Position numbers and translations under genes: made by a program. The notes under the pieces are model-generated. The model worked only from the letters and a program-made list of their open reading frames with translations, ran no database searches and was not told the DNA's origin. From Anaeromonas frigoriresistens (GTDB lineage: Bacteria > Bacillota > Clostridia > Tissierellales > SIT17): 64,000 bases of DNA. The stretch is taken from assembly GCF_016820655.1 (NCBI RefSeq), contig NZ_WSFT01000053.1, forward strand, positions 186,001 to 250,000, written 5' to 3'. Below are positions 7,483-40,569 of the stretch, piece by piece. How positions within the stretch are numbered: the first letter of the stretch is position 1; each line of letters starts with the position of its first letter.

Positions 7483-7879
7483 TAAAATTATCTATATAAT
7501 CATGAAGTTGTTCAAATAAAAGACCTAATACAAACCAAAAAGGAAGGTAGTCTAGTCTTATATAACCTAGAATAGTATAGGGCGAATTTCCACTATAGTC
7601 CCATGGACAGACACCAATTATTTTATGCAATAAAAAACCAGTAACAAATTCTATAGAAAAGATTATAACAGACCAAACACCTCCTCGTATTATAAAGTTT
7701 TTATCTCTGATAATATCATGTATTCTTTCTAAAAAAACTGCAGATCCATAAATAAAAAACATCCAAATATAAGTATGACCTATTAATGTAAAATCATTAG
7801 ATATAAGGGAACCTATTCCAGTAAAAAAAACTTCAATCAATAGACCTATTAAACCATACATAACAAATTTTATTATCAT
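7454..7879 (-). CDS. CmpB-like membrane protein (putative ABC transporter type IV family)
   Basis: A 141-residue integral membrane protein with about four hydrophobic helices. The conserved core is GVWSVIIFSIEFVTGFLLHKIIGVCPWDYSGNSPYTILGYIRLDY, typical of the CmpB/type IV permease-like family (E-x-x-x-G near the membrane and the W-D-Y-S motif). The substrate is unknown. It is the only host gene here on the minus strand and is convergent with yraN. Confidence 0.75.
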   Translation of the reverse strand: MIIKFVMYGLIGLLIEVFFTGIGSLISNDFTLIGHTYIWMFFIYGSAVFLERIHDIIRDKNFIIRGGVWSVIIFSIEFVTGFLLHKIIGVCPWDYSGNSPYTILGYIRLDYLPFWFVLGLLFEQLHDYIDNFMITLKETPK

Positions 7880-7993
7880 AATATTATTATTTGATATAAA
7901 AACTATAATATACTTTACAACATTTTCAAAGATGATTAATGAAATCCAAAAAAACTAAGTTTTATGTTAGAAAAAGATGAACAATGTCTTAAT

Positions 7994-16371: not shown

Positions 16372-16411
16372 AAAAAGGCATAAAAAAAGACAGAAAATAA
16401 CCAAAATTTAG

Positions 16412-16439
16412 TTGACAAATTCTGTATACATGCTATAAT
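16412..16439 (+). promoter_or_regulatory. Strong promoter for the RNA polymerase transcript
   Basis: TTGACA at 16,412-16,417, a 16-base spacer, and TATAAT at 16,434-16,439 with an extended TGC before the -10. This is the closest match to consensus in the element, and it precedes a 460-base leader. Confidence 0.85.
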
Positions 16440-16445
16440 AGTTTA

Positions 16446-16905
16446 TGGAGAGGGATACAACGTTCCTAAGTAAATTATAACACACTGCAAATTCAATGTC
16501 AAGAGAAAAAGGTGCGTTATAATAAAAATTATACGTACCTGGCGAAAAGGGGGTCAAATTATGTGAATGAGAAAGGTACATAGGTTTTAGGGGAAGTTTT
16601 TTATAAGAGTTACTATTTAAAAGGAGGAATTTAGTGAACATATATATTAAAAATAGGCAAAAGAAAAAAGATGGCTGCAACCATCCATTTTCTAAAAGTT
16701 TTATGTAATTAGATTATAAAGTTAAATAAAGGGCTGAATTAGGATGGGTGGCACCATCCTTATTCGTCATTGTTTTAAAGGGTGGAATAGTCCACTTCTT
16801 TAAACGTGCCTATATTTAATTAACTTTATATATATTATATTACCTAATTTATAGAAATTATTCAAGTACCGAAAAAATAGAGAGAGAAAAATTTGAGGGG
16901 GCAAA
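16446..16905 (+). ncRNA. Long structured leader of the phage RNA polymerase gene
   Basis: About 460 untranslated bases. Hairpins seen: GGTGCGTTATAAT with ATTATACGTACC (16,511-16,539); GATGG-CTGCAA-CCATC with outer AGAAAA/TTTTCT (16,662-16,693); AGGATGG-GTGGCA-CCATCCT (16,741-16,760); and GTTTTAAAG-GTGGA-ATAG-TCCAC-CTTTAAAC (16,771-16,806). ATTATAAC at 16,475-16,482 can compete for GTTATAAT in the first hairpin, so alternative folds are possible. Two short frames with good ribosome binding sites lie inside. GGGTGGCACC with TTCGTC downstream recalls a T-box, but no stem I can be recognised. Confidence 0.55.
16634..16708 (+). CDS. Possible 24-aa leader peptide
   Basis: GTG at 16,634 lies 7 bases after AAAAGGAGG, one of the best ribosome binding sites in the element. 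It encodes a basic peptide beginning VNIYIKNRQKKKDGCNHPF. The GATGG/CCATC hairpin of the leader lies inside the coding part, so translation would melt it. This could be an attenuation device or a spurious frame. Confidence 0.4.
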   Translation: MNIYIKNRQKKKDGCNHPFSKSFM

Positions 16906-19900
16906 GTGATAGTGATGAAAATAAAAAGAAAACAATATTATGTTAATGCTTATAGATTTGGTGATGTTAAGAAAGAAAAAGGTATATTAATTTTAGATAA
17001 AGACAATAGAGAAGAATATTCGAATAGTGAAAATATAATATTTGATACCTTATATAGAATTATGAAGAAAGAATACAATTATGAGAGATTCGATCAAGAG
17101 GGAAATAAAATTAAAAACTATATACCAGAGATTTTTATATTAAAAGCTGATGGAATTAAAGAAGATAACGATGATTATATAGAAATTATGAAAAATGGAG
17201 TATACATAGCAGATAAACATTATATTAGATTTGGTAAATCTGCATCAATGACTAGAGAGGTTAGAACATTATTTATTGAAAAAGAATGGCATGATAAGCT
17301 CAAAGATTTTATTTCTCTAGGAAAGACACCAAAAAAATGTACTATATCAAAGTTTGAAAGTGCTATAGGTCTTATGCTTAGTTCGGTTTATTTATTGCCT
17401 ATACAACCTAGAATATGTGTAATAGAAGATATGACTAGAACTATATATGAAGATGTGAAGGTAGTTAAAAAGTATGAAGGAGATATTAATGATCCTGAGT
17501 ATTTAAAATATGAAGAATTGCTTAGAAAAGAAGAGGAATATAATGAAGACTATATAACTAAAACGGAAGAAATTAACAAGAAATTCACCAATGAATATTT
17601 AAAGAAAAATTATAAGAAAAAGAAAGACGGTCATACTCCTGCTCAATGGAGAGAGTTAGGCAGAAGAGTTAAAATTGATGAATTAGATAAACCTTATGGT
17701 TACATAGGAAATTATTATAGAAAATATAAATTCGACCAAACTGAAGAAAGTCCAGATATACCAATGAACAAATATACAGTAGGCTACGAAGTTGTAGAAG
17801 ACGATAAGCATGAAATAGAAGTAGAAATTTTTGATGGAAATGGAGTAATGAGTTATGATGTGGCTGACAAGATTAGTAAGTTACTTGGATTAAATTATAC
17901 AACTAATGCAATGCAAATAAGACAAAATTATATAAAAGGGCTAGTCGTGAGAATGGATTTTAAGAGCTACTTTAAAGAAAAAGGTATTACTCATATAAAG
18001 GGCATTTGGGGAAAAGAGTATTCGGTAAATGAGTTAGATATGATTATACCCGAATCTATGTTTAAGGCAAAATTAGAGGTAGTAGGTAGGAAAGAAGATG
18101 GCTCTGATAAAAAAGAATGGTTATTTAGAAACTTCCAGGAGTATGAAGGACTTAGAGACTTCTATGGATTTAATAAATTAGGAGTTGCTAACTATGCAAA
18201 AGATAAATTAGATGAATACACGAAAATGACATATCAATTTATTAATGCTCTTAATCTAAGTAAGAAAGATATTAAAAAATTAGCAAATTCTACAGGGAGA
18301 TATATCGAAAAGGCTCTAGAAGGCGATGTATCTTCAGTTAAAAGCCTTTTAGGGATAATTAAAAATATAGATAAAGACGATGATAGAATAGACATTATTT
18401 ATGAAGCACTATCTAAAAATGAAGACTTAATATGGGAACCTCATATTCAGAAAGAAGTATTATATAAGATCATAGGAATATTAGAAGATATTTGTAAAGG
18501 AGAAATATGGACGGAAGGTAATTATAGATATGTAGCTACGGATATGATTCAATTTTTAGAGTGGGCAGGATATAGAGATGAAAGTAAGGTAACAGGTTTC
18601 CTTAATCCTTATGAATTTTATACAAGTGGAGAAGAAGGTTATAGAGTTTGTATTCGTAATCCACTGTGTTCATGGCATGAAGTAGGAAAAGAAAAGTTTG
18701 TTACTAGTAATAATAAGTGGATTCAACACCTACATAATATAGTTCAGATATCTAATAAATCGCCTGAAATGGCTAAATATAGCGGAATGGATATGGATGG
18801 AGATTTATTAGGAATATTTAAAAATCCAATATTATTAGATGCAGTGTTAGAAGATAAAGTAATTGTAAATGATGATGATGGAGTTACAGCGAATGGCGTT
18901 GAATATAACATTGATAATATAATCAATATCTTTGAGCTTAAAAACCTAGAAAATAAAATAGGTGCTGTGACTATGTTGGGGACTACTATTGCAGATAGTG
19001 CTTTAGAAGAAGGTGACTTAAGAAGTGTTGAGTTACCTATTGCAGTTGTTAAGTATTTACAAGCAGCCTATATAGATGCAGCTAAAAATGGAATTGGAGA
19101 TGAGATTGCAATACCAGAAATCATCAAGAAACATGCAGAGAAAAAAGCTTATTTCTTAAGACATGTAAAGGGTGGTCAAAAGTTTCTTTATAATGATTCG
19201 GAATCTCCTTTCAATAAATTTGTAAAATCTTTAGAAGTGTATATGGAAGGTAGCATTAAGCAATTAAATAAAAAATTAGTTAAACCTGAAAATATAGAGA
19301 TAGATCACAATAAGTTATATAACAAGTTAATTGATTACGATAGATTTGATAGTAAAACTATGACTAAAATTATTAAAGCTATTGCTCCCATTCATAATGA
19401 TTTTATAGAGAGAAGAAAAGAGATTAACAAAGAAAAAATAGAAGAAGAAAAGAAAAGAAAAACAGATAAAGTTAAGAAAGAACTGAAGATTATTAATAAA
19501 AAGTATACCGAGTTAAATGAAGAAACGATTAATAAATGTGAAGAAATAAAGTTATTTGAGGATAAAGATATTAAATTAGGCGATGATCCTTCAGTATTAG
19601 CAAGTGCGGCAGTCATTATCTCCTATGTATTGACTGAAGATAAAACCAAGAATGATAAATTTTTAAACAAAAAGAGTAAAGATTATAGTTTTGCTTGGAT
19701 ATTTAAAGAGGGGTTACTTCTTAATATTGAAAAAAATAAAGGAAAAATTACATCGGAAATAATTAGATTACGTGAGTTAGAAGAAATAAAAGAGAAGTTA
19801 AATTTAGTAAGTATTAAAAATAACAAAGTTGTTGTAAATGGAGAAAGTATTCCTCTAAATAATAAGTTGTTAAAAAACAAAAAAGGAACATTCGAAGTAG

Positions 19901-20295
19901 ATAAAGATTTCAGAGGTCATGTATATTTAAAGATACCTAAAGAATCGGAAGGAATACAATTTAATGAGAATGAAACAATATTTAAAATTAATTCAGAATT
20001 AGAGCATTTTATTGATTTTAAATGTAGGTTATTAAAACTCAATGGTGATGTAAAAGAAATTAAAAATATATTACTTAATATATCTGATGAAGATATTCTT
20101 TCGATTTGTATTCATAGAGAAGATCTAAAATTATTTTTAAATGGTGAAGAGTTAGGAACTATTAGAAATCAAGATACATGGGATTTAGAGAAAGAAGTGT
20201 ATTTGAGAGATTATCTATATAAATTAGTAAAGTGTAAAGTTGTTAAAGTAAATAAAAGTACAGTGGATATTGAATTAAGTAGTTTAGAAGTATAA
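16906..20295 (+). CDS. Phage RNA polymerase of the two-barrel QDE-1/YonO class
   Basis: A large 1,129-residue protein. Residues 309-345 read FDGNGVMS...A..I...QIR...KG and match the first double-psi barrel of eukaryotic RNA-dependent RNA polymerases (DGCG-S-A, QIR-G-KG). Residues 584-633 have RNP and then SGMDMDGD; the DxDGD metal-binding aspartates are D629, D631 and D633, about 45 residues after RNP, as in that family. SPbeta YonO, a phage DNA-dependent RNA polymerase, belongs to the same class. The C-terminal third is lysine-rich and unassigned. I infer transcription of late prophage genes. The start is GTG 16,906 or ATG 16,915; GAGGGGG fits both loosely. Confidence 0.82.
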   Translation: MIVMKIKRKQYYVNAYRFGDVKKEKGILILDKDNREEYSNSENIIFDTLYRIMKKEYNYERFDQEGNKIKNYIPEIFILKADGIKEDNDDYIEIMKNGVYIADKHYIRFGKSASMTREVRTLFIEKEWHDKLKDFISLGKTPKKCTISKFESAIGLMLSSVYLLPIQPRICVIEDMTRTIYEDVKVVKKYEGDINDPEYLKYEELLRKEEEYNEDYITKTEEINKKFTNEYLKKNYKKKKDGHTPAQWRELGRRVKIDELDKPYGYIGNYYRKYKFDQTEESPDIPMNKYTVGYEVVEDDKHEIEVEIFDGNGVMSYDVADKISKLLGLNYTTNAMQIRQNYIKGLVVRMDFKSYFKEKGITHIKGIWGKEYSVNELDMIIPESMFKAKLEVVGRKEDGSDKKEWLFRNFQEYEGLRDFYGFNKLGVANYAKDKLDEYTKMTYQFINALNLSKKDIKKLANSTGRYIEKALEGDVSSVKSLLGIIKNIDKDDDRIDIIYEALSKNEDLIWEPHIQKEVLYKIIGILEDICKGEIWTEGNYRYVATDMIQFLEWAGYRDESKVTGFLNPYEFYTSGEEGYRVCIRNPLCSWHEVGKEKFVTSNNKWIQHLHNIVQISNKSPEMAKYSGMDMDGDLLGIFKNPILLDAVLEDKVIVNDDDGVTANGVEYNIDNIINIFELKNLENKIGAVTMLGTTIADSALEEGDLRSVELPIAVVKYLQAAYIDAAKNGIGDEIAIPEIIKKHAEKKAYFLRHVKGGQKFLYNDSESPFNKFVKSLEVYMEGSIKQLNKKLVKPENIEIDHNKLYNKLIDYDRFDSKTMTKIIKAIAPIHNDFIERRKEINKEKIEEEKKRKTDKVKKELKIINKKYTELNEETINKCEEIKLFEDKDIKLGDDPSVLASAAVIISYVLTEDKTKNDKFLNKKSKDYSFAWIFKEGLLLNIEKNKGKITSEIIRLRELEEIKEKLNLVSIKNNKVVVNGESIPLNNKLLKNKKGTFEVDKDFRGHVYLKIPKESEGIQFNENETIFKINSELEHFIDFKCRLLKLNGDVKEIKNILLNISDEDILSICIHREDLKLFLNGEELGTIRNQDTWDLEKEVYLRDYLYKLVKCKVVKVNKSTVDIELSSLEV

Positions 20296-20301
20296 TGTAT
20301 C

Positions 20302-20354
20302 AGCCCCCGCCCTTCTGCCACTACGTGGCTTCGGGCGAGAAACGGGCGGGGGCT
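20302..20354. ncRNA. GC-rich stem-loop element 1
   Basis: AGCCCCCGCCC (20,302-20,312) pairs perfectly with GGGCGGGGGCT (20,344-20,354). The 31-base interior holds an inner hairpin GCCAC-TAC-GTGGC and then single-stranded GGGCGAGAAA. It begins 6 bases after the RNA polymerase stop. No U-run follows, so a simple terminator is unlikely. It shares its architecture with the element at 20,398. Confidence 0.7.
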
Positions 20355-20397
20355 TAATAATAAATTTTATATATTTTATATTCTATTAATATTATTC

Positions 20398-20453
20398 GGC
20401 TACCTCGCCCTAAGCCGACAACGCGGCTAAGGACGAGAAAGGGCGAGGTAGCC
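20398..20453. ncRNA. GC-rich stem-loop element 2
   Basis: GGCTACCTCGCCC (20,398-20,410) pairs perfectly with GGGCGAGGTAGCC (20,441-20,453). The 30-base interior holds AGCCG-ACAACG-CGGCT and then AAGGACGAGAAA. The outer stem differs from element 1 while pairing is kept, and the segment GGRCGAGAAA before the closing strand is conserved. Both elements could act as RNA or as single-stranded DNA. Confidence 0.7.
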
Positions 20454-20708: not shown

Positions 20709-21761
20709 ATGAAATTAGAGGAAGGACAGGTAATAAAAAATTATAAACAACTATGCAATTTATTAGATGTAGAACCTACCAAAGGAAAAGGTAGAAAATA
20801 TCATATCAAAGAATTTGAAAGATATTGTAAATATCACAAAACAGGTCATAAGTTTATAGTCGACGAAGTGTACTCAGAGCCAAAGCCTAAAACAGATGGC
20901 AGAATAAATAATGGCGGACACATTTCAAACACAAAGTATGAAGATTTAATGGATAGAATAATAATAAATACTTTAATAGACTATAATTATATAGAAGAAT
21001 CTTTTAGCGAAATGATGAATATATTAGACTTTTTTACTACTAAATATGTAGATTTAAATAAAGCAGGCTATAAAAAGTTTGCAGAAAGTAATAAATTAGG
21101 TATAGGAGTTACGCTTACATATCAACAGAAACTTAATAATATAGTTAGAAAATGCCTAGAAACATCGTTAAATAGATTGCATAAAAATGGTATTATTACA
21201 TATGAAAAAAGAATCAATATAAGAGATAAAAATCTTACTGAAAATCTTGCAGATGAAAAAATGGAATTATTAATTAAAAAATATGAAATTGAAACTTATG
21301 AAGAAATGGGAATAAAACCTCACAATAGAATCTTGTTAGATGTAAATAGACAGTTTAAAAATAAAGTAAGTAGAAAACTAGATATACTGTCTTATTGGAA
21401 TGTTTATTGTATTAAATTAATTAATCAAAAGACAGATAAAGTTAAAGAGTATACGGATGAATTAAGGGAAAGACTTATTAAATCTGTAGTCGATGCAGTT
21501 AAAAATAAAAAAACAAAAGATGATTTGGATGATATATATTATCCTTATTCTTACGATAAATATACATTACAAATAGACAAACTAAACAACTTATTATGGA
21601 ATTTACCAGAAACATATATGTCAAAGTATGATTTTGATTTGATTATGTCTGAAGGTATAAATGATTTGAAGTGTGAAACTGTTAAGAGTTCTAATACAGG
21701 ATTTTATATAAATAATTATAATGAATTTTACACAGCAGATGATAGTTCTATTCCATTTTAA
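20709..21761 (+). CDS. Prophage protein of unknown function, 350 aa
   Basis: A soluble protein of 350 residues. The N-terminus (IKNYKQLCNLLDVEPTKGKGRKYHIKEFERYCKY) looks like a small DNA-binding helix domain of the kind found before phage replication or regulator genes. The rest is helical with basic patches, and the C-terminal end is Tyr- and Asn-rich. I do not recognise a catalytic motif. AAAGGAGC precedes the ATG. It sits between the stem-loop elements and a hairpin-rich gap. Confidence 0.75.
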   Translation: MKLEEGQVIKNYKQLCNLLDVEPTKGKGRKYHIKEFERYCKYHKTGHKFIVDEVYSEPKPKTDGRINNGGHISNTKYEDLMDRIIINTLIDYNYIEESFSEMMNILDFFTTKYVDLNKAGYKKFAESNKLGIGVTLTYQQKLNNIVRKCLETSLNRLHKNGIITYEKRINIRDKNLTENLADEKMELLIKKYEIETYEEMGIKPHNRILLDVNRQFKNKVSRKLDILSYWNVYCIKLINQKTDKVKEYTDELRERLIKSVVDAVKNKKTKDDLDDIYYPYSYDKYTLQIDKLNNLLWNLPETYMSKYDFDLIMSEGINDLKCETVKSSNTGFYINNYNEFYTADDSSIPF

Positions 21762-21846
21762 CTAATCAAATATAACACAAATCAAACAAATAAATGACAT
21801 TCACTTGCGTTCATGAATTATAATTTATTTAATATTTATTATATAA

Positions 21847-21914
21847 AAAAGTAACACCATTTAAAGGGATTATAGTATATATATAATATAACTCTTTTAA
21901 TTAGTGTTACTTTT
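21847..21914. other. Long imperfect hairpin
   Basis: AAAAGTAACAC (21,847-21,857) pairs perfectly with GTGTTACTTTT (21,904-21,914), with a second inner stem TTAAAGGGATTATA/TAATATAACTCTTTTAA. It could terminate the upstream operon or be part of the structured region that follows. Confidence 0.55.
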
Positions 21915-21944
21915 CAAAAAAGCATAAACTATAATATTTAATAT

Positions 21945-22012
21945 GCTAGACAGAAGACGCTTTTTCTTCTGGATAGCAAGGAAACGTTTTGCAAGCGATA
22001 GCGAAGCAAAAG
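21945..22012. ncRNA. Two adjacent hairpins, the first with a tandem G-A mismatch
   Basis: GCTA-GA-CAGAAGA pairs with TCTTCTG-GA-TAGC (21,945-21,977), where the two GA steps form a tandem sheared-type mismatch common in structured RNA. It is followed by TTTTGC...GCAAAA (21,987-22,011) enclosing GC-GATA-GC. No gene overlaps it. Confidence 0.5.
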
Positions 22013-22062
22013 GGATGCCTGCTTTTAACCTTTAATACATAATACATTTATATCGATTATAG

Positions 22063-22098
22063 AACTACTTAAACCAATTTTGGTTTGAGTAGTTTTTT
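22063..22098 (+). terminator. Rho-independent terminator
   Basis: AACTACTTAAACCA pairs with TGGTTTGAGTAGTT with one mismatch around ATTT, followed by TTTT. It isolates the next gene from upstream transcription. Confidence 0.88.
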
Positions 22099-22124
22099 AT
22101 ATGCAAATTTAGGAGATGAGGAAA

Positions 22125-22619
22125 TTGAAAAAGGTAGCTTGTGTTTACAGTATTGCAAATATATCAAGTAATAAAATTTATATTGGTAGCACTGTAAACT
22201 ATAAGAAAAGAATACAGAAACATCTTAGCTTGTTAAGACGAGATAAACATATAAATAAACAGTTACAAGAAGATTTTAATAAGTATGGAGAAGATAATTT
22301 TATATTTGATATTTTATTGGAAGTTGATGATTTAGATGATTTGAGAGATTTAGAGAAGCATTACATAGATATCTATTGTACAGAAGATGATTATAACTCT
22401 AAATATGATTCATACGCACCATTAACATTTAAGTTATCAGATCAAAGTTGGGTAGTGGGAATCCATTAGCTATACTAACAGAAAATCAGGTAAGAGAAAT
22501 AAAGGTATTAATGCATGAAGGTGAAAGTCCTACCGAGCTTGCATTAGTCTATGGTGTAAAAAGAGGTACTTTATATTCAATAAAATATAATACATCATGG
22601 AGTCATATACAAATTTAAT
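22125..22619 (+). pseudogene. Frameshifted GIY-YIG homing endonuclease
   Basis: The first frame (to 22,469) is a GIY-YIG nuclease: CVYSIANISSNKIYIGSTVNYKKRIQKHL, then EDNFIFDILLEVDD and LEKHYIDIY. It ends in SWVVGIH and a stop. The +1/-2 frame then reads GNPLAILTENQVREIKVLMH to TAA 22,619, a NUMOD-like helix-turn-helix (ESPTELALVYGVKRGTLYSIK, then SWSHI) that normally follows in such homing endonucleases. One small indel near 22,450-22,465 explains both. The nuclease half may still be made. TTG 22,125 is preferred because AGGAG abuts the ATG at 22,116. Confidence 0.75.
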
Positions 22620-22840
22620 TTGATGTTAGAGAGTGTGCAGACTCTTTGATAAAGATAAAACTTTACTATTGTTTTAGTTTTAGTCATGATATTACGGTAA
22701 TTTTGCATGTTTTATCTAGGTTCAAGTCCTAGGCTCCTACAAAAACTAAAAACATGATGAGTATAGCGAGGATTCTATACACACAAGAGGTGGTACAAGT
22801 TACTATCTCTTTTATTTTTAAAATAATTTATATTATATAG
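22620..22840. ncRNA. Non-coding stretch with several hairpins, including a tRNA T-arm mimic
   Basis: CTAGG-TTCAAGT-CCTAG at 22,716-22,732 has the exact form of a tRNA T arm. No acceptor, D or anticodon arms fit around it, so it is not a working tRNA. Other hairpins are AGAGT/ACTCT near 22,630, GTATAG/CTATAC at 22,761-22,780 and AAGAG/CTCTT at 22,785-22,811. This runs into the tandem array below, so all may belong to one long RNA. Confidence 0.5.
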
Positions 22841-22844
22841 ATTT

Positions 22845-23255
22845 GTCGAACTCACAAGGGCGACGTAAAATAAAAAACTTGTGCAACATAAAATTCTTCT
22901 TTTATTGCCATTGCAGAGGGCTTATAATACTCTGCTCTCCTTTATGTAAATAATTAATATTATTATAAATTTGGTCGGCTCACAATCACGACTCAAAATA
23001 AGTATTGTGGCGATAACTATTCTTTTTGATGCCATTGCAAGGGGCTATATACCTTGCTCTCCTTATATAAATAATTTAATTATATAAATTTTGTCTAGTA
23101 GAGTGAGACGTAAAATAAAGACTCGATTTACATCTAAGAATTAAAAACTGTTACCGTCATTGTAGAGGGCAGCTAATACTCTACTACTTGAATTTCTATT
23201 CTTATTGGTCAAACCATATTATTTACGCCTTTGGTGGAGGGCTTTGTACTCCACC
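22845..23255 (+). ncRNA. Tandem array of pseudoknot-plus-hairpin RNA units
   Basis: Units recur every 120-125 bases. Unit A: GTCG/CGAC (22,845/22,861) with CACAAG/CTTGTG (22,853/22,878), interleaved as an H-type pseudoknot. B: GTCG/CGAC with CACAAT/ATTGTG (22,981/23,004). C: GTCT/AGAC with GAGT/ACTC (23,101/23,121). AAAATAA links the strands each time. A hairpin follows in each: GCAGAG/CTCTGC, GCAAGG/CCTTGC, GTAGAG/CTCTAC and, in a fourth partial unit, GGTGGAG/CTCCACC. Every loop starts GGC and ends TA. Stems change together while pairing is kept. The strand is inferred from the flanking genes. Confidence 0.75.
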
Positions 23256-23321
23256 CCATTATTTTGTAACAGTTTAAGAGAAAAAATTATAAAATCATAG
23301 AATTCTAGGGGGTTATTATAA

Positions 23322-23810
23322 ATGATTAAAGATGAAGATAAGAAAAAATTAGAAGAGTTAAAAAAGAAAACTGTATCTAATAATAAAAAAGGGGCTGTTC
23401 ATGTGAAAGAAAGTAAAGATGTTAAAATTGAAAATTCAAAAATTGATATTGACTATGATGAAATAAGGAAAATTTTTAAAAGTGAATTAAATGTACGTTT
23501 AGAAGAGATGCAAAAACGCATATTTAAGGGGTTTGTAAAAAGCATGCAAGACCAACACGATTTCTTAAGAGATAGGATATATGACAATATTAAGATAACT
23601 AAAGATGCAAATAATAAATTAAATAAATTATATAAAGCAGCTGTTAAAGAAGGATCAATAGTTGATGAAGAAGAGGTTAAGCGTAAGCAAGAAGAGGAAA
23701 AAAGGAAGGCTGAGGAACAACGCAAAAAAGAAGAAAAGGCTAAGATATTAATGGCAGAGTTAGAGAGTTTAGGCGTTAATGTAGAGGTGAAAAAGAGAAA
23801 TGCTAGGTAG
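23322..23810 (+). CDS. Coiled-coil prophage protein, 162 aa
   Basis: Not assigned to a family. The first 45 residues are lysine-rich and probably disordered; the middle has QKRIFKGFVKSMQDQHDFLRDRI; residues 115-150 form a highly charged helix (EEEVKRKQEEEKRKAEEQRKKEEKAKILMAEL). It starts after TAGGGGG and overlaps the next gene by 11 bases in another frame, so the two are coupled. It is the first gene after the RNA array. Confidence 0.7.
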   Translation: MIKDEDKKKLEELKKKTVSNNKKGAVHVKESKDVKIENSKIDIDYDEIRKIFKSELNVRLEEMQKRIFKGFVKSMQDQHDFLRDRIYDNIKITKDANNKLNKLYKAAVKEGSIVDEEEVKRKQEEEKRKAEEQRKKEEKAKILMAELESLGVNVEVKKRNAR

Positions 23811-32477: not shown

Positions 32478-32942
32478 ATGGCAAGACCTGCAAAAAGTGT
32501 AGATGTTATGTCTAAAAATTTAACTAAAGAAGAATATGAAGCTAGAAAAGCAGCAGAAGAATCTTTAAAGGGTGGATCGGATAAAATTAAGCCACCTATA
32601 TACTTAAATGATAAAGCTAAATCTATATTTAATTACATAGTTGAAGAATTAAAAGAAAGTGGCATATTAACTAATTTAGATGTTTATATATTAGCTACTT
32701 GTGCTAATGCAATAGTTAGAATTCAAGAAGCAGAAGAAATATTGAATGAAGGATTATTTGAAAAAGATGGAAAAGTTAAGAATGCTTTACGAGTAAAAGA
32801 AAGCTATACTAAAGAATTCTTTAGATGTACTAATGAATTAAGTTTAAGTCCACAAAGTAGAGCTAAGCTTGCAAATATTAATATACAAAAACAATTAGAA
32901 AAAGATGATCCAGTTTTAAAGTTACTAGGTGGCGATAATTAA
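32478..32942 (+). CDS. terS: Terminase small subunit, P27 family
   Basis: 154 residues: MARPAKSVDVMSKNLTKEEYEARKAAE, then PPIYLNDKAKSIFNYIVEELKESGILTNLDVYILATCANA, the P27-type helical DNA-recognition domain. The C-terminal end (SLSPQSRAKLANINI) is also typical. It recognises phage DNA and hands it to the large subunit. AAAGGTAGGTGG lies upstream. Its stop overlaps the next start by one base. Confidence 0.92.
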   Translation: MARPAKSVDVMSKNLTKEEYEARKAAEESLKGGSDKIKPPIYLNDKAKSIFNYIVEELKESGILTNLDVYILATCANAIVRIQEAEEILNEGLFEKDGKVKNALRVKESYTKEFFRCTNELSLSPQSRAKLANINIQKQLEKDDPVLKLLGGDN

Positions 32943-34633
32943 TGCTAAAAGAGAAGGCAATAAAATATGCTAATGATGTAGTTAATGGTGAAGAAGTTGC
33001 TACTAAAGAAGTAATCAAACAATGTGAATGGTTCTTAAATGATTTAAAAAGGCAAGATGATAATAATTTCAAATATTATTTTGATGAAAAAGAAATAGAA
33101 AAAATTGAAGGTATACTAAAACTCTTAAATTTTGCTACAGGTTTGGGAGTTGTAGGATTACCGATATTAGAAGGGCTTTGGGGATTCCAAGCCTTTTTTT
33201 TATGCAATGTTTTTGGATGGAGATTTAAAGAAGATAAGAAGAAGTTTAAGAATAGAACTAATATATTGTTTATACCTAGAAAAAATGCAAAAACTTTTAT
33301 ATGTGCTTTGATAATTATAATTCTAATGTTGATAGAAGATCATTATAGTGAATTTTATAGTATATGTTTAGATAGAGAATTAGCAAGTAAAGTAAAAGAA
33401 GCTATGACACAGATAATTAATGCAAGTCCTGATATATTAAAACATTTTATAACTTCAAAAACATTAAACGGTAAAATTACATGCAAAATAACTAATAGTT
33501 TTTATCAAGCAAGAACAGCAGAAGCTAATAAAAATAACTCTATAAGACCAAGTGCATTTATTGCAGATGAGATAGGAGCTTTTAGGGATTCTAAAAACAT
33601 TAATGCAATGAAATCAGGTCAATTATCTGTTAAGAACCCTTTAAGGTTTAAGATCACAACAGCTTATGCAGAATCTGAAAGTATAATGATAGAGGAACTA
33701 GATTATATACGTAAGGTTTATGATGGTGTAATAGATGATGATAGAATATTTTCATTACTATATTATGCTGAAAAGAGTCACGAATGGGATGATATAGGAT
33801 TAGAAATGGCTAATCCTTTAAGAGTTAAAGAAAATTATCAAGAAATTAAAGATAATAGAAAAGTAGCAAAAGAAAAACTTTCTGAACAGACTGAATTTCT
33901 CACTAAACATATGAATGTATTTGTAACGAATGATAAATCAGAAAGATACATTGATATGGATGATTGGAAAAAGTGTCAAGTAGAAACAATTGATTTAGAA
34001 GGTAAACAAGTTGTAGTTTCTATTGATGCAAGTTTAACTACAGACTTAACAGCTATAAATATTATGTATAAGGAAAAGGGAATATACTACTTAAAATCTC
34101 ATGCTTTTCTACCAAGGTTATCACTATCAGAAAGAAGAGAAAAAATAGATTATAACCTTATGGAGAAACTAGGATATTGTACTATTGTAGAGGGAAAATA
34201 TGTCGACTATAATCTATTAGAAGATTATATAAGAAATATAGAATCAAAATACAATTGTACAATAAAGAAGATTTGTTCTGATCCATTTAATTTTATTCAA
34301 AATCTACAGAATCTAGCCAATGATTATGATGTTGATATAATTAAACAGACATATTCAGAACTGTCAGCACCTACTAAAACCTTTAGAAATGATGTTTATG
34401 GTGAAAAGGTTAAATATGAAAAGAATAAATTATTAGATTGGAATATGAGTAACGCTAAAGCAAAACCTAAGAAAGTTACTGGTGACATTCTATTAGAAAA
34501 AGTTAATAAGAATAAAACTCGAATAGATATGGTTGTGGCTACTATTTTTGCTTATAGTAAATTATATCTCGAAGAAGATGATACGTATGATTATGAGATA
34601 ACAGATGAGAAGCTTGATGAATGGGGGTGGTAA
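32942..34633 (+). CDS. terL: Terminase large subunit (Terminase_1 family)
   Basis: 563 residues; the motor and nuclease for DNA packaging. The ATPase part has the divergent P-loop NILFIPRKNAKTFICALI, then ARTAEANKNNSIRPSAFIADEIG as Walker B. The RNase H-like nuclease part has VVVSIDASLTTDLTAI with the first catalytic Asp, a second acid in KKICSDPFNF, and a third in TRIDMVVATIFAYS. Full length. A terminator-like hairpin lies shortly after its stop. Confidence 0.95.
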   Translation: MLKEKAIKYANDVVNGEEVATKEVIKQCEWFLNDLKRQDDNNFKYYFDEKEIEKIEGILKLLNFATGLGVVGLPILEGLWGFQAFFLCNVFGWRFKEDKKKFKNRTNILFIPRKNAKTFICALIIIILMLIEDHYSEFYSICLDRELASKVKEAMTQIINASPDILKHFITSKTLNGKITCKITNSFYQARTAEANKNNSIRPSAFIADEIGAFRDSKNINAMKSGQLSVKNPLRFKITTAYAESESIMIEELDYIRKVYDGVIDDDRIFSLLYYAEKSHEWDDIGLEMANPLRVKENYQEIKDNRKVAKEKLSEQTEFLTKHMNVFVTNDKSERYIDMDDWKKCQVETIDLEGKQVVVSIDASLTTDLTAINIMYKEKGIYYLKSHAFLPRLSLSERREKIDYNLMEKLGYCTIVEGKYVDYNLLEDYIRNIESKYNCTIKKICSDPFNFIQNLQNLANDYDVDIIKQTYSELSAPTKTFRNDVYGEKVKYEKNKLLDWNMSNAKAKPKKVTGDILLEKVNKNKTRIDMVVATIFAYSKLYLEEDDTYDYEITDEKLDEWGW

Positions 34634-34844
34634 TATCAAATCTATAAAATTAAATAAATTAAAAGATAAATTTTTAGAACTTCTATGTATTTACATAGAA
34701 GATTTTTTTATTTTAGTAGGATTATTATTTATTATAATACCTACCTATATTGTAAATATAATAATAGGTCTATATGTAACGGGGCTAATATTTATAATGT
34801 TAGGAATATATTTTGCTAGAAATCCACTGAAGAAAGAGAGGTGA
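34617..34844 (+). CDS. Small two-helix membrane protein, start uncertain
   Basis: About 75 residues with two membrane segments (FFILVGLLFIIIPTYIVNIIIG and YVTGLIFIMLGIYFA) and a basic end. It overlaps the end of terL in another frame. No good ribosome binding site serves the ATGs at 34,605 or 34,617. A perfect 10-bp hairpin with a T-run lies inside its frame. Small membrane proteins do occur between terL and portal genes, so I keep it at modest confidence. Confidence 0.5.
   Translation: MNGGGNIKSIKLNKLKDKFLELLCIYIEDFFILVGLLFIIIPTYIVNIIIGLYVTGLIFIMLGIYFARNPLKKER
34680..34709 (+). terminator. Terminator-like hairpin inside a small gene
   Basis: CTTCTATGTA pairs perfectly with TACATAGAAG, with only TT between, followed by ATTTTTTT. 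It lies within the frame of the small membrane protein downstream of terL. Confidence 0.65.
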
Positions 34845-34850
34845 TAATAT

Positions 34851-36095
34851 ATGTTATTTAGAAGAAATGTGGAATCAGAAAAGAGAACTTCATATAGTTT
34901 ATCTGATGAAGAAATTCTAAAGATATTTAATATAGACGCTGATGGAGTTAGTGAAGATAAATTAAAACAGGCTACTTATTTTTCTTGTTTTAGAATATTA
35001 ACTGATTCTATTAGTAAGCTACCTTTGAAGATGTATCAAGAAAACAAAGAAGGTATTGAAAAAGCTAATGATCATTATCTATATAATTTATTAAAATTAA
35101 GACCTAATCCCTATATGTCTAGTTCTGATTTCTGGAAGATGATTGAATTTCAGAGATTAGATAAAGGGCATAGTATTGTTTATATTGATACTATAAAAAG
35201 AGGAAGAAATGCAGGGAAAATAAAAGGATTATATCCTTTAGAAATGAATAAAGTAGAAGTCTGGATAGATAACGCTGGTATTATAGGAAAAGATAATGCT
35301 ATCTGGTATATCTATAAACAGGATAAAAATACAGAATTTAAGTTTAAATCAGATCAAGTATTACATTTTAAAGGCATGACAAGGGATGGAATTACTGGAT
35401 TATCTATTAAAGATTATCTTAAAACTACAATAGAGAATGCTCAGAGTGGTGAAAAGTATGTAAATAACTATTTTAAAAATGGTTTACAGGCTACAGGACT
35501 ATTACAATATACAGGGAACATTTCAAAAGAAGATGAAAATAGAATGAGGGAAAGATTTGAGAAGATGGCAAATGGTCTTAAAAACGCTCATCGTATTTTA
35601 CCAGTTCCAACTCCTTTTAGCTTTCAGCCCATAACCCCTTCAATGGTAGATTCTCAATTCTTAGAAATCAATGAATTATCAATTAGACAAATTGCATCAG
35701 GGTTTGGAATAAAACCTCATCAGTTAGGTAATTTAGATAGATCAACTCATACTAACATAGTAGAACAAAATAAGGAATTTTATATAGATACCTTACAACC
35801 AATTCTTACTATGTATGAACAAGAGCTTACTTGGAAGTTACTTCTACAAAATGAATTAGAGCAAGGTTATTTCTTTAGATTTAATGTAGATAGTATCTTG
35901 AGGAGCGACATTAGGACAAGATATGAAGCTTATCAAATAGGTGTTCAGTCAGGTTTCTTATCAATAAATGAGGTGCGGGATAAAGAAAATCTATCATCTA
36001 AAGAAGAAGGCAATCAATTAATTTGTAATGGAAATATGATACCTGTTTCAATGGCAGGTGAGCAATATAAAAAGAATAACACTCAGAATGAGTAG
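34851..36095 (+). CDS. HK97-type portal protein
   Basis: 414 residues forming the dodecameric DNA gate at the capsid vertex. Family features: LKQATYFSCFRILTDSISKLPLKMYQENKEG near the start, LRPNPYMSSSDFWKMIE, then FKGMTRDGITGLSIKDY, and FLEINELSIRQIASGFGIKPHQLG. It starts 10 bases after GAGAGGTG. The prohead protease follows 20 bases later. Complete. Confidence 0.95.
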   Translation: MLFRRNVESEKRTSYSLSDEEILKIFNIDADGVSEDKLKQATYFSCFRILTDSISKLPLKMYQENKEGIEKANDHYLYNLLKLRPNPYMSSSDFWKMIEFQRLDKGHSIVYIDTIKRGRNAGKIKGLYPLEMNKVEVWIDNAGIIGKDNAIWYIYKQDKNTEFKFKSDQVLHFKGMTRDGITGLSIKDYLKTTIENAQSGEKYVNNYFKNGLQATGLLQYTGNISKEDENRMRERFEKMANGLKNAHRILPVPTPFSFQPITPSMVDSQFLEINELSIRQIASGFGIKPHQLGNLDRSTHTNIVEQNKEFYIDTLQPILTMYEQELTWKLLLQNELEQGYFFRFNVDSILRSDIRTRYEAYQIGVQSGFLSINEVRDKENLSSKEEGNQLICNGNMIPVSMAGEQYKKNNTQNE

Positions 36096-36115
36096 AAACC
36101 TTGAGAGGAGGTGAT

Positions 36116-36709
36116 ATGATGAGCAAACAGAAGGAAACAAGGTACATAAGTATTGAGAAATTAGAAACTAGGGCAACAGAAGAAGATAATAAATTATCTA
36201 TCTCTGGGTATGTAGTCCAGTTTAACAAAAGAAGTAAAGTAATGTGGGATTTTGTTGAAGTAGTAGCTAAAGGTGCATTTAGAAACTCTCTTAAAGAAAA
36301 TGTTATAAAAGCACTTTGGAATCATAATCATGATTATGTTTTAGGGAGTACTAAAAATTCAACTTTAAAATTAAGAGAGGATGATTATGGTCTTAAGTTT
36401 GAACTAGACCTACCTAGTAATACCTGGGGAAAAGATTGTTACGAGTCAGTATCTAGAGGTGATGTGGATGGTGTTTCGTTTGGATTTTTTGTAAGAGAAG
36501 ACGAGTGGGAATACATAGACGATGAAGACCTTTATAAAAGGACACTTTTAGAAGTAGATTTATTTGAAATAAGTCCAACTCCATTCCCCGCCTATGAAGA
36601 TAGTCAGGCAAGTTGTAGAAGTTTTGAAAATTTTAAAACAGAACTTGAAGAAAAGGAAAATAAAGAGTTAAGAAAAAGAAAATTATCTTTAGAGCTAGAT
36701 TTAATCTAG
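36116..36709 (+). CDS. HK97-type prohead protease
   Basis: 197 residues. It matures the capsid by cutting the delta domain of the capsid protein. Motifs: ISGYVVQFNKRSKVMWDFVEVVAKGAF, WNHNHDYVLG with the catalytic His, and GVSFGFFV with the catalytic Ser, then LLEVDLFEISPTPFPAYEDSQA. The tail is charged. Start at ATG 36,116 or 36,119 after GAGGAGGTG. Confidence 0.95.
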   Translation: MMSKQKETRYISIEKLETRATEEDNKLSISGYVVQFNKRSKVMWDFVEVVAKGAFRNSLKENVIKALWNHNHDYVLGSTKNSTLKLREDDYGLKFELDLPSNTWGKDCYESVSRGDVDGVSFGFFVREDEWEYIDDEDLYKRTLLEVDLFEISPTPFPAYEDSQASCRSFENFKTELEEKENKELRKRKLSLELDLI

Positions 36710-36758
36710 GTCTTTTTTTATATCTAAAATAAATTGAAAATGAAAGGATGTTGTATGT

Positions 36759-37907
36759 ATGAGTAAAGAAATTAGAGAATTATTAGCAAAAGTTGAGGAA
36801 GTAAAAGCAGAGGCTAGAGGTTTAATGCAAGAAGATAAATTAGAAGATGCTGAAGCTAAGATGGAAGAAGTAAGGAAATTACAAAAGAAAATTGAACTAC
36901 AAAAAGAACTAGAAGAGGAAGGAGAAAGAGAAATTGATACTAAAATCGAAAATAGAAAGGTCGATGATAATATGAATGAAAATGAGACAAGAAAAGTAGA
37001 TACAGCAGCAGAGTTAAGAGCTATTATTAAAGCTAGTATGGGTAAAGATATAACAACTGAAGAAAGAGCATTATTAACTACTGGGGCTAATGGAGAGGGG
37101 TATTTATTACCTGAAGATGTAAGAACTAAAATTCATACTTTAGTAAGAGATTATAGAAGTTTTAGAGAAGTGTTAGGTTACATGCCTACAATTGCACTAA
37201 GTGGATCATTTCCTATAGAAGATTTTGAGACTGTTTCTGAATTAATAGATTTTACAGATGGAACGGATGGAAGCGAAGCAAATGATATTAAATTTAGAAA
37301 TGTATCTTTTGCACTTAAGCAAAAAGGTGCTTTAATTAAGTTATCTAATACTTTATTATCTATGACAGATAATGATCTTATTGATTATGTAGCTAAAGTA
37401 TTTGCTAAGAAAGCTGTTATTACAGAAAACAAAATGGCTATTAGTGCTCTAGGAACTGGCAAAACAGTTAAGAGTATTGCTGACTGGAAAGCATTAAAGA
37501 AGAGTATAAATATAGATTTAGATGAAGCTGTAAAATATGGCTTAGTTATTGTAACTAATCAAGATGGATTTGATAAATTAGATAGTGAAGTTGATTCTCA
37601 AGGTAGACCAATTTTACAACCAGATCCAACTAATCCTACTCAAAAGAGATTTATGGGATATCCTATAAAGGTATATAGTAATTCCTTATTACCTACTACT
37701 GGAACTACAACATTGAAGGCTCCATTATACTATGGAAACTTAGAAGAGGCTGTAAAGTTTGTAGATAATAATAAATATGCTTTTGCAACTTCTGCTCATG
37801 CTGGATTTAACTCTAATTCCACCATGGCTAGAGTAATTGAGTATGTAGATGTTATCCAGGTAGATTCTTCTGATAAGATATACATTGCAGGAACATTAAC
37901 TGTATAA
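36759..37907 (+). CDS. HK97-type major capsid protein
   Basis: 382 residues. Residues 1-75 form a coiled-coil delta (scaffold) domain, KEIRELLAKVEEVKAEARGL and so on, to be removed by the protease. The capsid fold follows: TTGANGEGYLLPEDVRTKIHTLVRDYRSFREVLGYMP, then VSFALKQKGALIKLSNTLLSMTDNDLIDYV, RFMGYPIKVYSNSLLP, and a C-terminal ARVIEYVDVIQVD strand. AAAGGATG lies upstream. A strong terminator follows. Confidence 0.96.
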   Translation: MSKEIRELLAKVEEVKAEARGLMQEDKLEDAEAKMEEVRKLQKKIELQKELEEEGEREIDTKIENRKVDDNMNENETRKVDTAAELRAIIKASMGKDITTEERALLTTGANGEGYLLPEDVRTKIHTLVRDYRSFREVLGYMPTIALSGSFPIEDFETVSELIDFTDGTDGSEANDIKFRNVSFALKQKGALIKLSNTLLSMTDNDLIDYVAKVFAKKAVITENKMAISALGTGKTVKSIADWKALKKSINIDLDEAVKYGLVIVTNQDGFDKLDSEVDSQGRPILQPDPTNPTQKRFMGYPIKVYSNSLLPTTGTTTLKAPLYYGNLEEAVKFVDNNKYAFATSAHAGFNSNSTMARVIEYVDVIQVDSSDKIYIAGTLTV

Positions 37908-37927
37908 AAAATAATATAAAACTTATA

Positions 37928-37968
37928 GGGGCATAGAGAAAAAGGCTCTTTTTTTATGCCCTTTTTTA
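37928..37968 (+). terminator. Terminator after the capsid gene
   Basis: GGGCATA pairs with TATGCCC around an inner AGAG/CTCT hairpin and is followed by TTTTTT. It lies inside the morphogenesis operon. Confidence 0.85.
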
Positions 37969-37987
37969 TATTTAAGGCGGTGATATA

Positions 37988-38290
37988 TTGATATTAACAT
38001 TAGAAGAAGTAAAGCAATTTTTAAGAATTGAAAGTGATTATACTGAAGAAGATTCAACTATTCAAATTATGATAAATAATGCAGAGGCTTTTGTTAAAAA
38101 TATTGTGGAATACTTAGATGAAACAAATAATTTAATGATGAGTCAAGCTAAACTATTAGTACTTGTTTTAGTAGCTGATTTTTATGAGAATAGAGAATTA
38201 AGTTGTAAGCCTTCTGAAAAAGTTAGATACTCAATTCAATCAATCATCACTCAACTTCAATATAGCTATGGTGATACTTATGAAAGTTAA
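37988..38290 (+). CDS. Head-tail connector (gp6-like adaptor)
   Basis: 100 residues starting at TTG after AAGGCGGTGA. MILTLEEVKQFLRIESDYTEEDSTIQIMINNAEAFVKNIV, then QAKLLVLVLVADFYENRELSCKPSEKVRYSIQSIITQLQY, is the standard gp6/DUF3199-type helical adaptor that seals the portal. The next gene starts inside it. Confidence 0.88.
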   Translation: MILTLEEVKQFLRIESDYTEEDSTIQIMINNAEAFVKNIVEYLDETNNLMMSQAKLLVLVLVADFYENRELSCKPSEKVRYSIQSIITQLQYSYGDTYES

Positions 38291-38609
38291 TATAGGTGAA
38301 CTTAATAAAAGAATCGCTATTGTTGAATTGATAGAAGGACAGGATGATGAAGGTTTTCCACTAGATGAGCCTATACCTGTAGAAATATACAAAGTATGGG
38401 CAAAAGTTACGAATAAAAGCGGGTCGGAGATATTCAAATCTAACTCTGATTATTCTAAAAAGATAACTAGATTTCTAATACGATATAGGAAAAGGATTAA
38501 TGAATCTCAAAAGGTAAGGTACAATAATATCTTATATGATATTCAATATCTCAATAACTACAATGAGGAAAATAAATGGTTAGAAATCATAGCTGAGGTT
38601 GTGAAGTGA
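38280..38609 (+). CDS. Head closure protein (SPP1 gp16-like)
   Basis: 109 residues, beta-rich: MKVNIGELNKRIAIVELIEGQDDEGFPLDEPIPVEIYKVWAKV, then TRFLIRYRKRINESQKVRYNNILYDIQYLNN. This is the head-tail joining/stopper family. I use the ATG at 38,280, 4-5 bases after GGTGA; an ATG at 38,268 is also in frame. It ends in a TGATG overlap with the next gene. Confidence 0.88.
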   Translation: MKVNIGELNKRIAIVELIEGQDDEGFPLDEPIPVEIYKVWAKVTNKSGSEIFKSNSDYSKKITRFLIRYRKRINESQKVRYNNILYDIQYLNNYNEENKWLEIIAEVVK

Positions 38610-38965
38610 TGAATGGTTTTGAAATTGATGGTATGGAAGATTTAGAAGAACTATTATCTGATATGACATTAGATATAGCTAATGAGAAAAAGGCTATGAA
38701 GGCAGCAATTCAACCAATAAAGGAAGAAGTTGAAAAGAATACGCCAGTATTATCTGGTGATATGAAAGACGATATAAAAACGAGTGTTAGACAGTCCAAA
38801 GAAGGTATAATTGGTGAAGTAAAGATACAAAATTATCATGTATTATTCCAGGAATTTGGTACAAGTTATCAGCAAGCTAATGTTGGTTTTTACGAAAGAA
38901 GTATTAATAAGACATATAAAGAAGGACTGAGTATATTAGCAAAAGAATTATTGAAAGGCAGATGA
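38609..38965 (+). CDS. HK97 gp10-like tail-connector protein
   Basis: 118 residues: FEIDGMEDLEELLSDMTLDIANEKKAMKAAIQPIKEEVEKNTPVLSGDMKDDI, with the NTPVLSG motif of the family, then VLFQEFGTSYQQAN. It joins head and tail during assembly. It is coupled to the preceding gene through TGATG. Confidence 0.9.
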   Translation: MNGFEIDGMEDLEELLSDMTLDIANEKKAMKAAIQPIKEEVEKNTPVLSGDMKDDIKTSVRQSKEGIIGEVKIQNYHVLFQEFGTSYQQANVGFYERSINKTYKEGLSILAKELLKGR

Positions 38966-38969
38966 TGCA

Positions 38970-39326
38970 ATGAGCATTAGAAAACTAGTTAAAGATACAC
39001 TTAGTCATGCTGAGATTCTTAATCTTACAAGCAATGGTTATGTGTATTTTTTAAAGAAAAGTCAAGATGTTCAACCTCCATATGTTACATATAGAATCTA
39101 TGACGAAGGTGGAGAAGATTGGACAGAGAATAGAGAAGTGGCTACTAATTATTATGTACAAGTTGATATATTCTCTAAAGGTAGTTATTCAGAGTTAGAA
39201 AGATTAATAAAAGAAAAAATGATAAACGCATGTTTTATTAGAACAGCATCGGTTGATCTTTATGAAGAAGAGACTGAACTGTACCATAAGGCAATCCGTT
39301 TTTTATTTACTCAAAATAATATATAA
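38970..39326 (+). CDS. Tail terminator/completion protein
   Basis: 118 residues: MSIRKLVKDTLSHAEILNLTSNGYVYFLKKSQDVQPPYVTYRIYDEGGEDWTENREVATNYYVQVDIFS is the DUF3168/gp17-like pattern (PPYVTY, then a VQVDIFS strand). It caps the tail tube. It follows the gp10-like gene after 4 bases. Confidence 0.85.
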   Translation: MSIRKLVKDTLSHAEILNLTSNGYVYFLKKSQDVQPPYVTYRIYDEGGEDWTENREVATNYYVQVDIFSKGSYSELERLIKEKMINACFIRTASVDLYEEETELYHKAIRFLFTQNNI

Positions 39327-39344
39327 AAATTGAAAGGATGATAA

Positions 39345-39941
39345 ATGATGAGTCAAAGTACAATTGTAGGATTAGAAAAATTATATTATGCAAAATTAAC
39401 AAGTGATGAAAGAGGTGGGCTTATTGCCTATGATGCTCCCATATATCTTGATAATGTAAAAGAGATAAGCATAAATCCAAAGCAAAACACAGAAAAAGGA
39501 TATGGGGGTAATAAACTAGTTCTTCAAATGACCACCCTAGACGAAATAGAAGTAGGTATTAATTTACTTACTTTAACAAATGCACAAAAGGCAGATTTAT
39601 TAGGACATAAATTAGCTGCCGAAGGTGGTGTTATATCTAAAAGCGATGATATTGCTCCCTATGTAGCATTATTGTATTTAGCTAACAAAAGTAATGGGGA
39701 GAAAAGATATGGAATACTTTACAAAGGTAAAATGCAATTACCAGAAGGCGGAGCAAAAGGTCAAGAGGGAAAAGCAGAAATTCAGAGTAACGAAATGAAG
39801 GCTATATTCCAACCATTAAGCGATGGTACTTGGCAATATCAAGTTGATACAGATGATCCGAACTGTCCAGCAACAATAGACACAACATTTTTTACAGATG
39901 TTTTAATACCAACAGAAGCTTCAGAAGGTACTGTTGTATAG
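39345..39941 (+). CDS. Major tail protein (phi13 family)
   Basis: 198 residues forming the tail tube: STIVGLEKLYYAKLTSDERGGLIAYDAPIYLDNVKEISINPKQN, then LLGHKLAAEGGVISKSDDIAPYVALLYLA and KRYGILYKGKMQLPEGGAKGQEGKAEIQSNEM. These blocks fit the phi13-type tube protein. GAAAGGATGAT precedes the start (ATG at 39,345 or 39,348). A strong terminator follows. Confidence 0.92.
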   Translation: MMSQSTIVGLEKLYYAKLTSDERGGLIAYDAPIYLDNVKEISINPKQNTEKGYGGNKLVLQMTTLDEIEVGINLLTLTNAQKADLLGHKLAAEGGVISKSDDIAPYVALLYLANKSNGEKRYGILYKGKMQLPEGGAKGQEGKAEIQSNEMKAIFQPLSDGTWQYQVDTDDPNCPATIDTTFFTDVLIPTEASEGTVV

Positions 39942-39975
39942 AGAATAGGGTATATACCCTATTCTCTATTTTTTT
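39940..39975 (+). terminator. Terminator after the tail tube gene
   Basis: GAGAATAGGGTA pairs with TACCCTATTCTC, followed by TATTTTTTT. It starts at the tail tube stop codon. Confidence 0.9.
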
Positions 39976-40009
39976 ACTTAAAAGATTAAAATTTGAAAGG
40001 ATGATTATA

Positions 40010-40345
40010 TTGTTAGATAAAGTTAGAAAAATGAAAATTGGAGAAAAAGAATATAGTTTTAAAATGACAAATAAGACTATATTTAAGGTTGATGAGAAGT
40101 ACGGAAACTATGGAAGTGTAATATATGGTTTAATGCAAGGAGTACAATATTATACAAATGCAGTAAAACTAATATCTTGTGCCTGTATAGAAAAAGAATG
40201 GAATATAGAAGAATTAATAGAGTTATTTACATCAGATCAATTAAATGGGGATGTACCCAATTTTGCAGCAGAATTATATTTTGATTATATAGGGATAGAG
40301 GAAACTGACAAAAAGGAAGAAGATAACAAAAAAGAAAAAAACTAA
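40010..40345 (+). CDS. Tail assembly chaperone, short form (gpG-like)
   Basis: 111 residues from TTG 40,010: MLDKVRKMKIGEKEYSFKMTNKTIFKVDEKYGNYGSVIYGLMQG and an acidic, lysine-rich end. Position between tail tube and tape measure is that of lambda gpG and Gram-positive equivalents. Its last codons carry the slippery heptamer A-AAA-AAC (40,336-40,342), with the stop directly after, so a -1 shift makes a longer form. The ATG at 40,001 is too close to the GAAAGG to be preferred. Confidence 0.85.
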   Translation: MLDKVRKMKIGEKEYSFKMTNKTIFKVDEKYGNYGSVIYGLMQGVQYYTNAVKLISCACIEKEWNIEELIELFTSDQLNGDVPNFAAELYFDYIGIEETDKKEEDNKKEKN

Positions 40346-40554: not shown

Positions 40555-40569
40555 GAAAGGAGGAATATA

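Follow-up and report, generated by a model that had tools for sequence, protein, structure and literature searches.

The window, the whole 64,000-nucleotide stretch of DNA analysed here, belongs to a 549-kb contig of a 3.2-Mb bacterial genome and contains, in positions 22820–23285, an array of tandem pseudoknots with plus-strand genes on both sides. Upstream of the array are a ParM-like gene, a small ParR-like gene, a gene for an FtsK-like ATPase and one for a 1,129-aa polymerase; downstream are genes for proteins of 162 and 118 aa and for a 300-aa phage protein family, followed by structural genes. A long non-coding gap lies between the polymerase block and the late genes. The array lies at the head of the late (particle-building) operon of a prophage with its own RNA polymerase, a placement that the first-pass annotation had not made. 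The features are as follows, in window coordinates.

16906–20295, plus strand: YonO/RdRP-type single-chain RNA polymerase, 1,129 aa (PF05183, DMDGD catalytic motif)
22785–22820, plus strand: intrinsic terminator directly 5' of the array
22820–23285, plus strand: whole array, non-coding, with two pseudoknots in each of three units and a further half unit; putative late-gene leader
22815–22848, plus strand: AT-rich conserved leader of unit 1 (~34 nt), either linker or phage promoter
22844–22883, plus strand: pseudoknot PKa1, stem 1 22844–22848/22861–22865 (TGTCG/CGACG), stem 2 22853–22858/22878–22883 (CACAAG/CTTGTG), loop 3 TAAAATAAAAAA (descriptor)
22907–22935, plus strand: pseudoknot PKb1, stem 1 GCC/GGC, loop 1 ATT, stem 2 GCAGAG/CTCTGC, loop 3 TTATAATA (descriptor, pair count)
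22973–23010, plus strand: pseudoknot PKa2, stem 1 GGTCG/CGACT, stem 2 TCACAAT/ATTGTGG, loop 3 CAAAATAAGT (descriptor)
23031–23057, plus strand: pseudoknot PKb2, stem 1 GCC/GGC, stem 2 GCAAGG/CCTTGC, loop 3 TATATA (descriptor, pair count)
23093–23124, plus strand: pseudoknot PKa3, weak, stem 1 GTCT/AGAC, stem 2 GAGT/ACTC, loop 3 GTAAAATAAAG (read from the sequence)
23156–23184, plus strand: pseudoknot PKb3, stem 1 GTC/GGC (one G-U), stem 2 GTAGAG/CTCTAC, loop 3 AGCTAATA (descriptor, pair count)
23227–23255, plus strand: pseudoknot PKb4 of the half unit, stem 1 GCC/GGC, stem 2 GGTGGAG/CTCCACC, loop 3 TTTGTA (descriptor, pair count)
23145–23275, plus strand: possible closing helix, AAACTGTTAC (23145–23154) with GTAACAGTTT (23266–23275), enclosing PKb3 and PKb4
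23322–23810, plus strand: first gene 3' of the array, 162 aa, all-helical, without a family match
32942–43854, plus strand: structural genes for terminase, portal, head protease, major head protein and tape measure

RNA polymerases of the YonO type consist of a single chain and are distant kin of the multi-subunit cellular enzymes. The phage polymerase to which the first-pass annotation had pointed, the 1,129-aa protein, is of this type: it matches PF05183, the RNA-dependent RNA polymerase family, with an E-value of 6e-15, shares 23–29% identity with phage relatives, including YonO of the SPbeta group, and carries catalytic aspartates that are invariant in six homologues. Single-sequence searches of viral and genome contigs returned no relatives of the enzyme, and an alignment search gave 36 loci at 22–27% identity. 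The long leader of the polymerase gene includes a strong sigma-70-type promoter (TTGACA + TATAAT) at 16410–16440 and several hairpins at 16660–16860. Immediately 3' of the gene stand two tandem GC-rich hairpins (20302–20355 and 20398–20453; −34 and −36 kcal/mol), which follow a common plan, CGCCC..inner hairpin..CGAGAAA..GGGCG, with differing stem sequences; neither has a gathering-level Rfam match, and the second overlaps a match to the pan motif (E 0.25). At the other end of the gap, the 162-aa protein was modelled as all-helical with a mean pLDDT of 80; searches of Pfam, PHROGs, PADLOC and PDB sequences gave no match for it, and none of its possible relatives was confirmed. Relatives of the terminase, at 66–68% identity, sit on fragments in which neither a polymerase nor an array was detected.

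Within the gap, stable terminator-like hairpins occur at 21858–21915 and 22063–22098. The segment 21915–22098 contains a TATAAT-like box, a pair of hairpins and a strong terminator and resembles a separate small RNA gene. It is followed at 22116–22620 by a GIY-YIG homing endonuclease gene, apparently frameshifted, whose catalytic part ends at 22469 and whose likely C-terminal helix-turn-helix continues in another frame to about 22618; a GIY-YIG fragment was the only close DNA relative found in phage records. At 22715–22741, a perfect tRNA T-arm-like hairpin, CTAGG-TTCAAGT-CCTAG (22715–22731), is followed by GCTCCTAC, with no recognisable remainder of a tRNA; ARAGORN reported no tRNA or tmRNA. 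A tRNA split by the GIY-YIG gene, an idea that arose by eye from this hairpin, was dropped when the two halves paired unconvincingly. Pieces resembling tRNA are also present in the SPbeta leader and in the RNA island of phage BSP14. No strong sigma-70 promoter was seen immediately before the array, and no terminator lies between it and the gene at 23322; the scan match at 23227–23242 is the 5' part of PKb4.

Read directly from the sequence, the array comprises three full units and a half unit, in agreement with the tandem arrangement first described. The units start at 22845, 22974 and 23093, spaced by 129 and 119 nt, and their hairpin blocks recur with a period of 124 and 125 nt; the fourth copy (23227–23255) consists of the second half of a unit alone. 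Aligned over their whole length, the units have a mean column identity of 73–75%. Their most constant parts are the AT-rich leader and the linker AAAATAA, which is invariant, as had been noted; the hairpin blocks are 61–76% identical between copies. The G+C content is 0.31 in the array and 0.28 in the window, and on neither strand does an open reading frame of 80 aa or more extend into the array. Further copies of the AT-rich leader at 22942–22976 and 23063–23095 place one before each full unit. No copies were found outside the array in 164 kb of the contig that would mark it as a phage promoter used elsewhere, and it may be either a linker or a triplicated promoter.

The second element of each unit had been described as a covarying hairpin only. 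In all four copies, however, the GGC of the loop pairs with a trinucleotide located 3 nt before the stem, GCC or, in unit 3, GTC, so that the hairpin is itself an H-type pseudoknot, here termed PKb, and the second of its unit. Its plan comprises a stem 1 of 3 bp, a loop 1 of 3 nt, a stem 2 of 6–7 bp, no loop 2, and a loop 3 of 6–8 nt ending in TA. The four different stem sequences (GCAGAG/CTCTGC, GCAAGG/CCTTGC, GTAGAG/CTCTAC and (G)GTGGAG/CTCCAC(C)) keep both their pairing and the loop GGC..TA, as the earlier description held. Across the four copies all 36 cells are paired and four of six stem-2 pairs have changed on both sides; the covariation score was equalled in 1 of 500 shuffles, and sliding the partner by 1–3 columns lowered pairing to 38–56%. 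Stem 1 of PKb is nearly invariant, and its support therefore lies in perfect pairing, not in covariation. The helix that may enclose PKb3 and PKb4 is a single 10-bp match and could be due to chance.

The first element, PKa, had been proposed as an H-type pseudoknot in every full unit, and this is solid in units 1 and 2, which have a stem 1 of five pairs and a stem 2 of six to seven pairs. Between these two units one stem-2 pair is altered on both sides (CACAAG/CTTGTG to CACAAT/ATTGTG). In unit 3 the proposal is weak, stem 2 having only 4 bp and falling under the descriptor threshold. All 12 cells of PKa stem 1 are paired, a count that is weak by itself, with one covarying pair that was matched by shuffling in a third of trials.

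Altogether, the array is predicted to fold into seven pseudoknots in tandem, a structure well supported by pairing and covariation. A descriptor for H-type pseudoknots (score of at least 23) recovered six of the seven within 466 nt. Among 1000 first-order, dinucleotide-model shuffles of the array, 863 contained no pseudoknot, 126 contained one and 11 contained two. The descriptor parameters were picked after the first-stage finding and fitted to these elements, so the figure makes the result look rather more surprising than it is; the distance from two to six nevertheless leaves room for this. The array thereby offers compensatory change among neighbouring copies at one locus, and clean pseudoknot evidence without any relatives.

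Searches for such relatives covered both known families and individual sequences. Rfam gave no relevant family at gathering score over the whole window and nothing relevant, including GOLLD and ROOL, at E ≤ 10 over 21700–23400. A covariance model of the unit, of the kind suggested with the first-pass annotation, identified only the three array copies within the genome that carries them. Among 249 genomes from the order and 391 from the class it gave nothing convincing; the weaker matches in these were single, and those inspected look like chance. In viral contigs, the PKa pattern gave two copies of one match, lone, outside any array and apparently in other coding sequence, and the PKb pattern gave lone matches mostly in apparently coding stretches, its only paired matches being in SPbeta relatives. 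The unit model found no match in the SPbeta locus (L029). A PKb model, which finds the four array copies, also matched GCCATTGAGAAGGCTTATAATG in the SPbeta leader (L029 8217–8252) weakly, with 15.1 bits and an E-value of 1.2 for 327 kb of sequence, or about E 0.003 for the 1.7-kb leader alone. Since several leaders were examined, and since the element in SPbeta could be no more than a simple hairpin, we treat this match as a lead only. By these searches, the array sequence appears nowhere else in the collections covered.

Other YonO phages were also compared by gene order. In SPbeta, the only phage for which such a start is known, the late operon transcribed by YonO starts at an unannotated non-coding RNA upstream of yonK, the promoter sequence recognised by YonO being undetermined in the paper that describes the enzyme (PMC5467207). 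In BUCT082 and SPBc2, the gap from yonN to yonK is about 1.7 kb and contains no annotated plus-strand genes. The order polymerase, non-coding gap, late genes is common to the present locus, SPbeta/BUCT082 and other YonO phages; many of the 36 polymerase loci from viral contigs, chiefly SPbeta-like ones, have downstream gaps of 0.5–2 kb, and the SPbeta-like gaps have raised G+C. SPbeta-type leaders also contain H-type pseudoknots with a covarying stem 2. One has the form AGCG..[TTGAGA/TCTCAA or CAAGA/TCTTG]..CGCTTTG, its stem 2 covarying between SPbeta-like phages and Herelleviridae. Another, GGTT..[CGCTG/CAGCG or GGCT/AGCC]..AACC, matches DUF3800-VIII RNA (RF03075), reads as an H-type pseudoknot and covaries in stem 2 among SPbeta relatives. 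DUF3800-VIII RNA resembles the array in being an H-type pseudoknot module, from SPbeta-type late leaders, but differs in sequence and was not found in the window. Pseudoknot counts in the four leaders tested exceeded all shuffles in two, exceeded nearly all, marginally, in a third, and were not clearly raised in the fourth. The likeness to the SPbeta RNA has limits: there is no significant sequence match, and the SPbeta leader has 1.7 kb of diverse modules as against 0.47 kb of one module in the array. As no sequence homologue was found, kinship with the SPbeta RNA rests on position, and on that positional basis we infer that the array is a divergent late-operon leader RNA of a YonO phage. Some YonO phages, PMBT24 and TR-TP1, have no long leader, which indicates that YonO transcription can do without the element.

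A known Rfam family, an antitoxin and DNA repeats, the ordinary explanations for such an array, were each tested or argued against. In a type III toxin–antitoxin system the repeats would be the antitoxin RNA and the 162-aa product of the gene at 23322 the toxin, and the array does share with ToxI and its kin a run of tandem pseudoknots ahead of a gene, here one of about the right size. However, type III antitoxins consist of short, near-identical repeats of 20–50 nt, whereas the units here are 119–129 nt long with hairpin blocks 24–39% different; the terminator expected between repeats and toxin gene is absent, the all-helical protein has no match of ToxN, CptN or TenpN type, and Rfam gave no match, making this the least credible of the readings considered. 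We also think it very improbable that the array is an element of DNA, such as iterons, a centromere or a cruciform origin, instead of RNA. Its tandem repeats, and the ParM-like and ParR-like genes of the phage, would suit such a role, but the partition genes are 10 kb away, the array sits between same-strand genes, short interleaved stems make poor cruciforms, and the stems vary while keeping their pairing, which double-stranded protein sites do not need.

Two further readings are less remote, if still unlikely. In one, the array would belong to a large phage RNA that stands on its own, as GOLLD and ROOL do: abundant, released from the mRNA by cleavage or termination, and perhaps assembling as RNA alone. 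The late genes would then simply happen to lie downstream. In several phages, large non-coding RNAs outnumber every other transcript, for example near lysis genes in ICP1 and near tRNA genes in phage K (PMC7567579, PMC9241854). The related leaders of SPbeta and Herelleviridae are long and pseudoknot-bearing, that of BSP14 being interspersed with tRNAs, and GOLLD and ROOL are themselves large structured phage RNAs with pseudoknots. Yet neither is a tandem array of one module and neither gave a covariance-model match; the earlier view that neither they nor type III antitoxins clearly fit is upheld by the lack of a relevant Rfam match even at E ≤ 10, by repeats unlike those of ToxI and by a neighbouring protein without a toxin match. 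Moreover, the terminators at 22063–22098 and 22785–22820 would split the region into separate RNAs, and none lies 3' of the array. Rated a shade lower is a leader that acts on the phage polymerase, its nascent pseudoknots binding or modifying the YonO-type enzyme (antitermination or anti-pausing) for the long late operon. The antitermination RNAs of phage HK022, the put RNAs, are comparable in logic. The array sits at the start of the operon that the YonO-type enzyme is expected to transcribe, terminators precede it, and tandem copies fit a nascent-RNA device. Against this, YonO is reported to be highly processive on its own (PMC5467207), the YonO phages named above manage without a leader, and Herelleviridae in which no YonO homologue was detected carry related modules in leaders that precede their portal genes.

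In the reading that we place first, at somewhat less than an even chance, the late transcript of a prophage with a YonO-type polymerase would begin with the array, which would serve as its structured, non-coding 5' leader, a duplicated module with a shape-based cis role. The array would correspond in place to the unannotated non-coding RNA from which YonO of SPbeta starts the late operon, and would probably be transcribed by the corresponding enzyme here. It may have grown by tandem duplication of a 120-nt module made up of two H-type pseudoknots; because the copies diverged in sequence and kept their fold, shape appears to be the selected trait. Such an RNA would most likely act in cis, on the long late mRNA whose 5' end it would form. 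RNase J is a bacterial 5'–3' exonuclease. A compact train of pseudoknots would bar the entry of this host enzyme, and would thereby let the late mRNA persist, or else the leader as a stable RNA in its own right. Tandem exonuclease-resistant RNAs (xrRNA; PMC5760640) and plant-virus pseudoknot domains resemble the array in being strings of compact pseudoknots in untranslated regions, with shape counting for more than sequence; they differ in lying in the 3' regions of eukaryotic viruses and in the details of their folds, so the analogy is functional only. The exonuclease block is the role that we rate highest, though not high. Whether the array would block 5' exonuclease or act on the polymerase, a shape-based cis role is in any case favoured over a type III antitoxin. 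More tentatively still, the array may represent a new class of phage RNA, a train of paired pseudoknots that leads a YonO-type late operon and acts through its shape, either by resisting exonuclease or by regulating the polymerase as nascent RNA. If pseudoknot-rich RNA commonly opens YonO late operons, the promoter, the RNA and its role would be directly testable, both in SPbeta and here.

Blocks of the SPbeta leader are also found in phages of the Bastillevirinae, a short distance ahead of the portal gene, and some individual elements were seen in several phages. The DUF3800-VIII pseudoknot (L029 8603–8631, L036 5026–5054) is found repeatedly in SPbeta-like leaders and also in phage KLEB27-3. 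A second element, TTGCGGTGTA.. (L029 about 7820–7890, L031 about 5130–5165, and L032, L033 and L037) occurs in the leaders or RNA islands of unrelated phages, namely the SPbeta group, Perkons and Bastillevirinae, and in several lies near an ACCTGACAAG block. Elsewhere in the window, a perfect 26-bp palindrome (53881–53932) stands immediately 3' of a gene.
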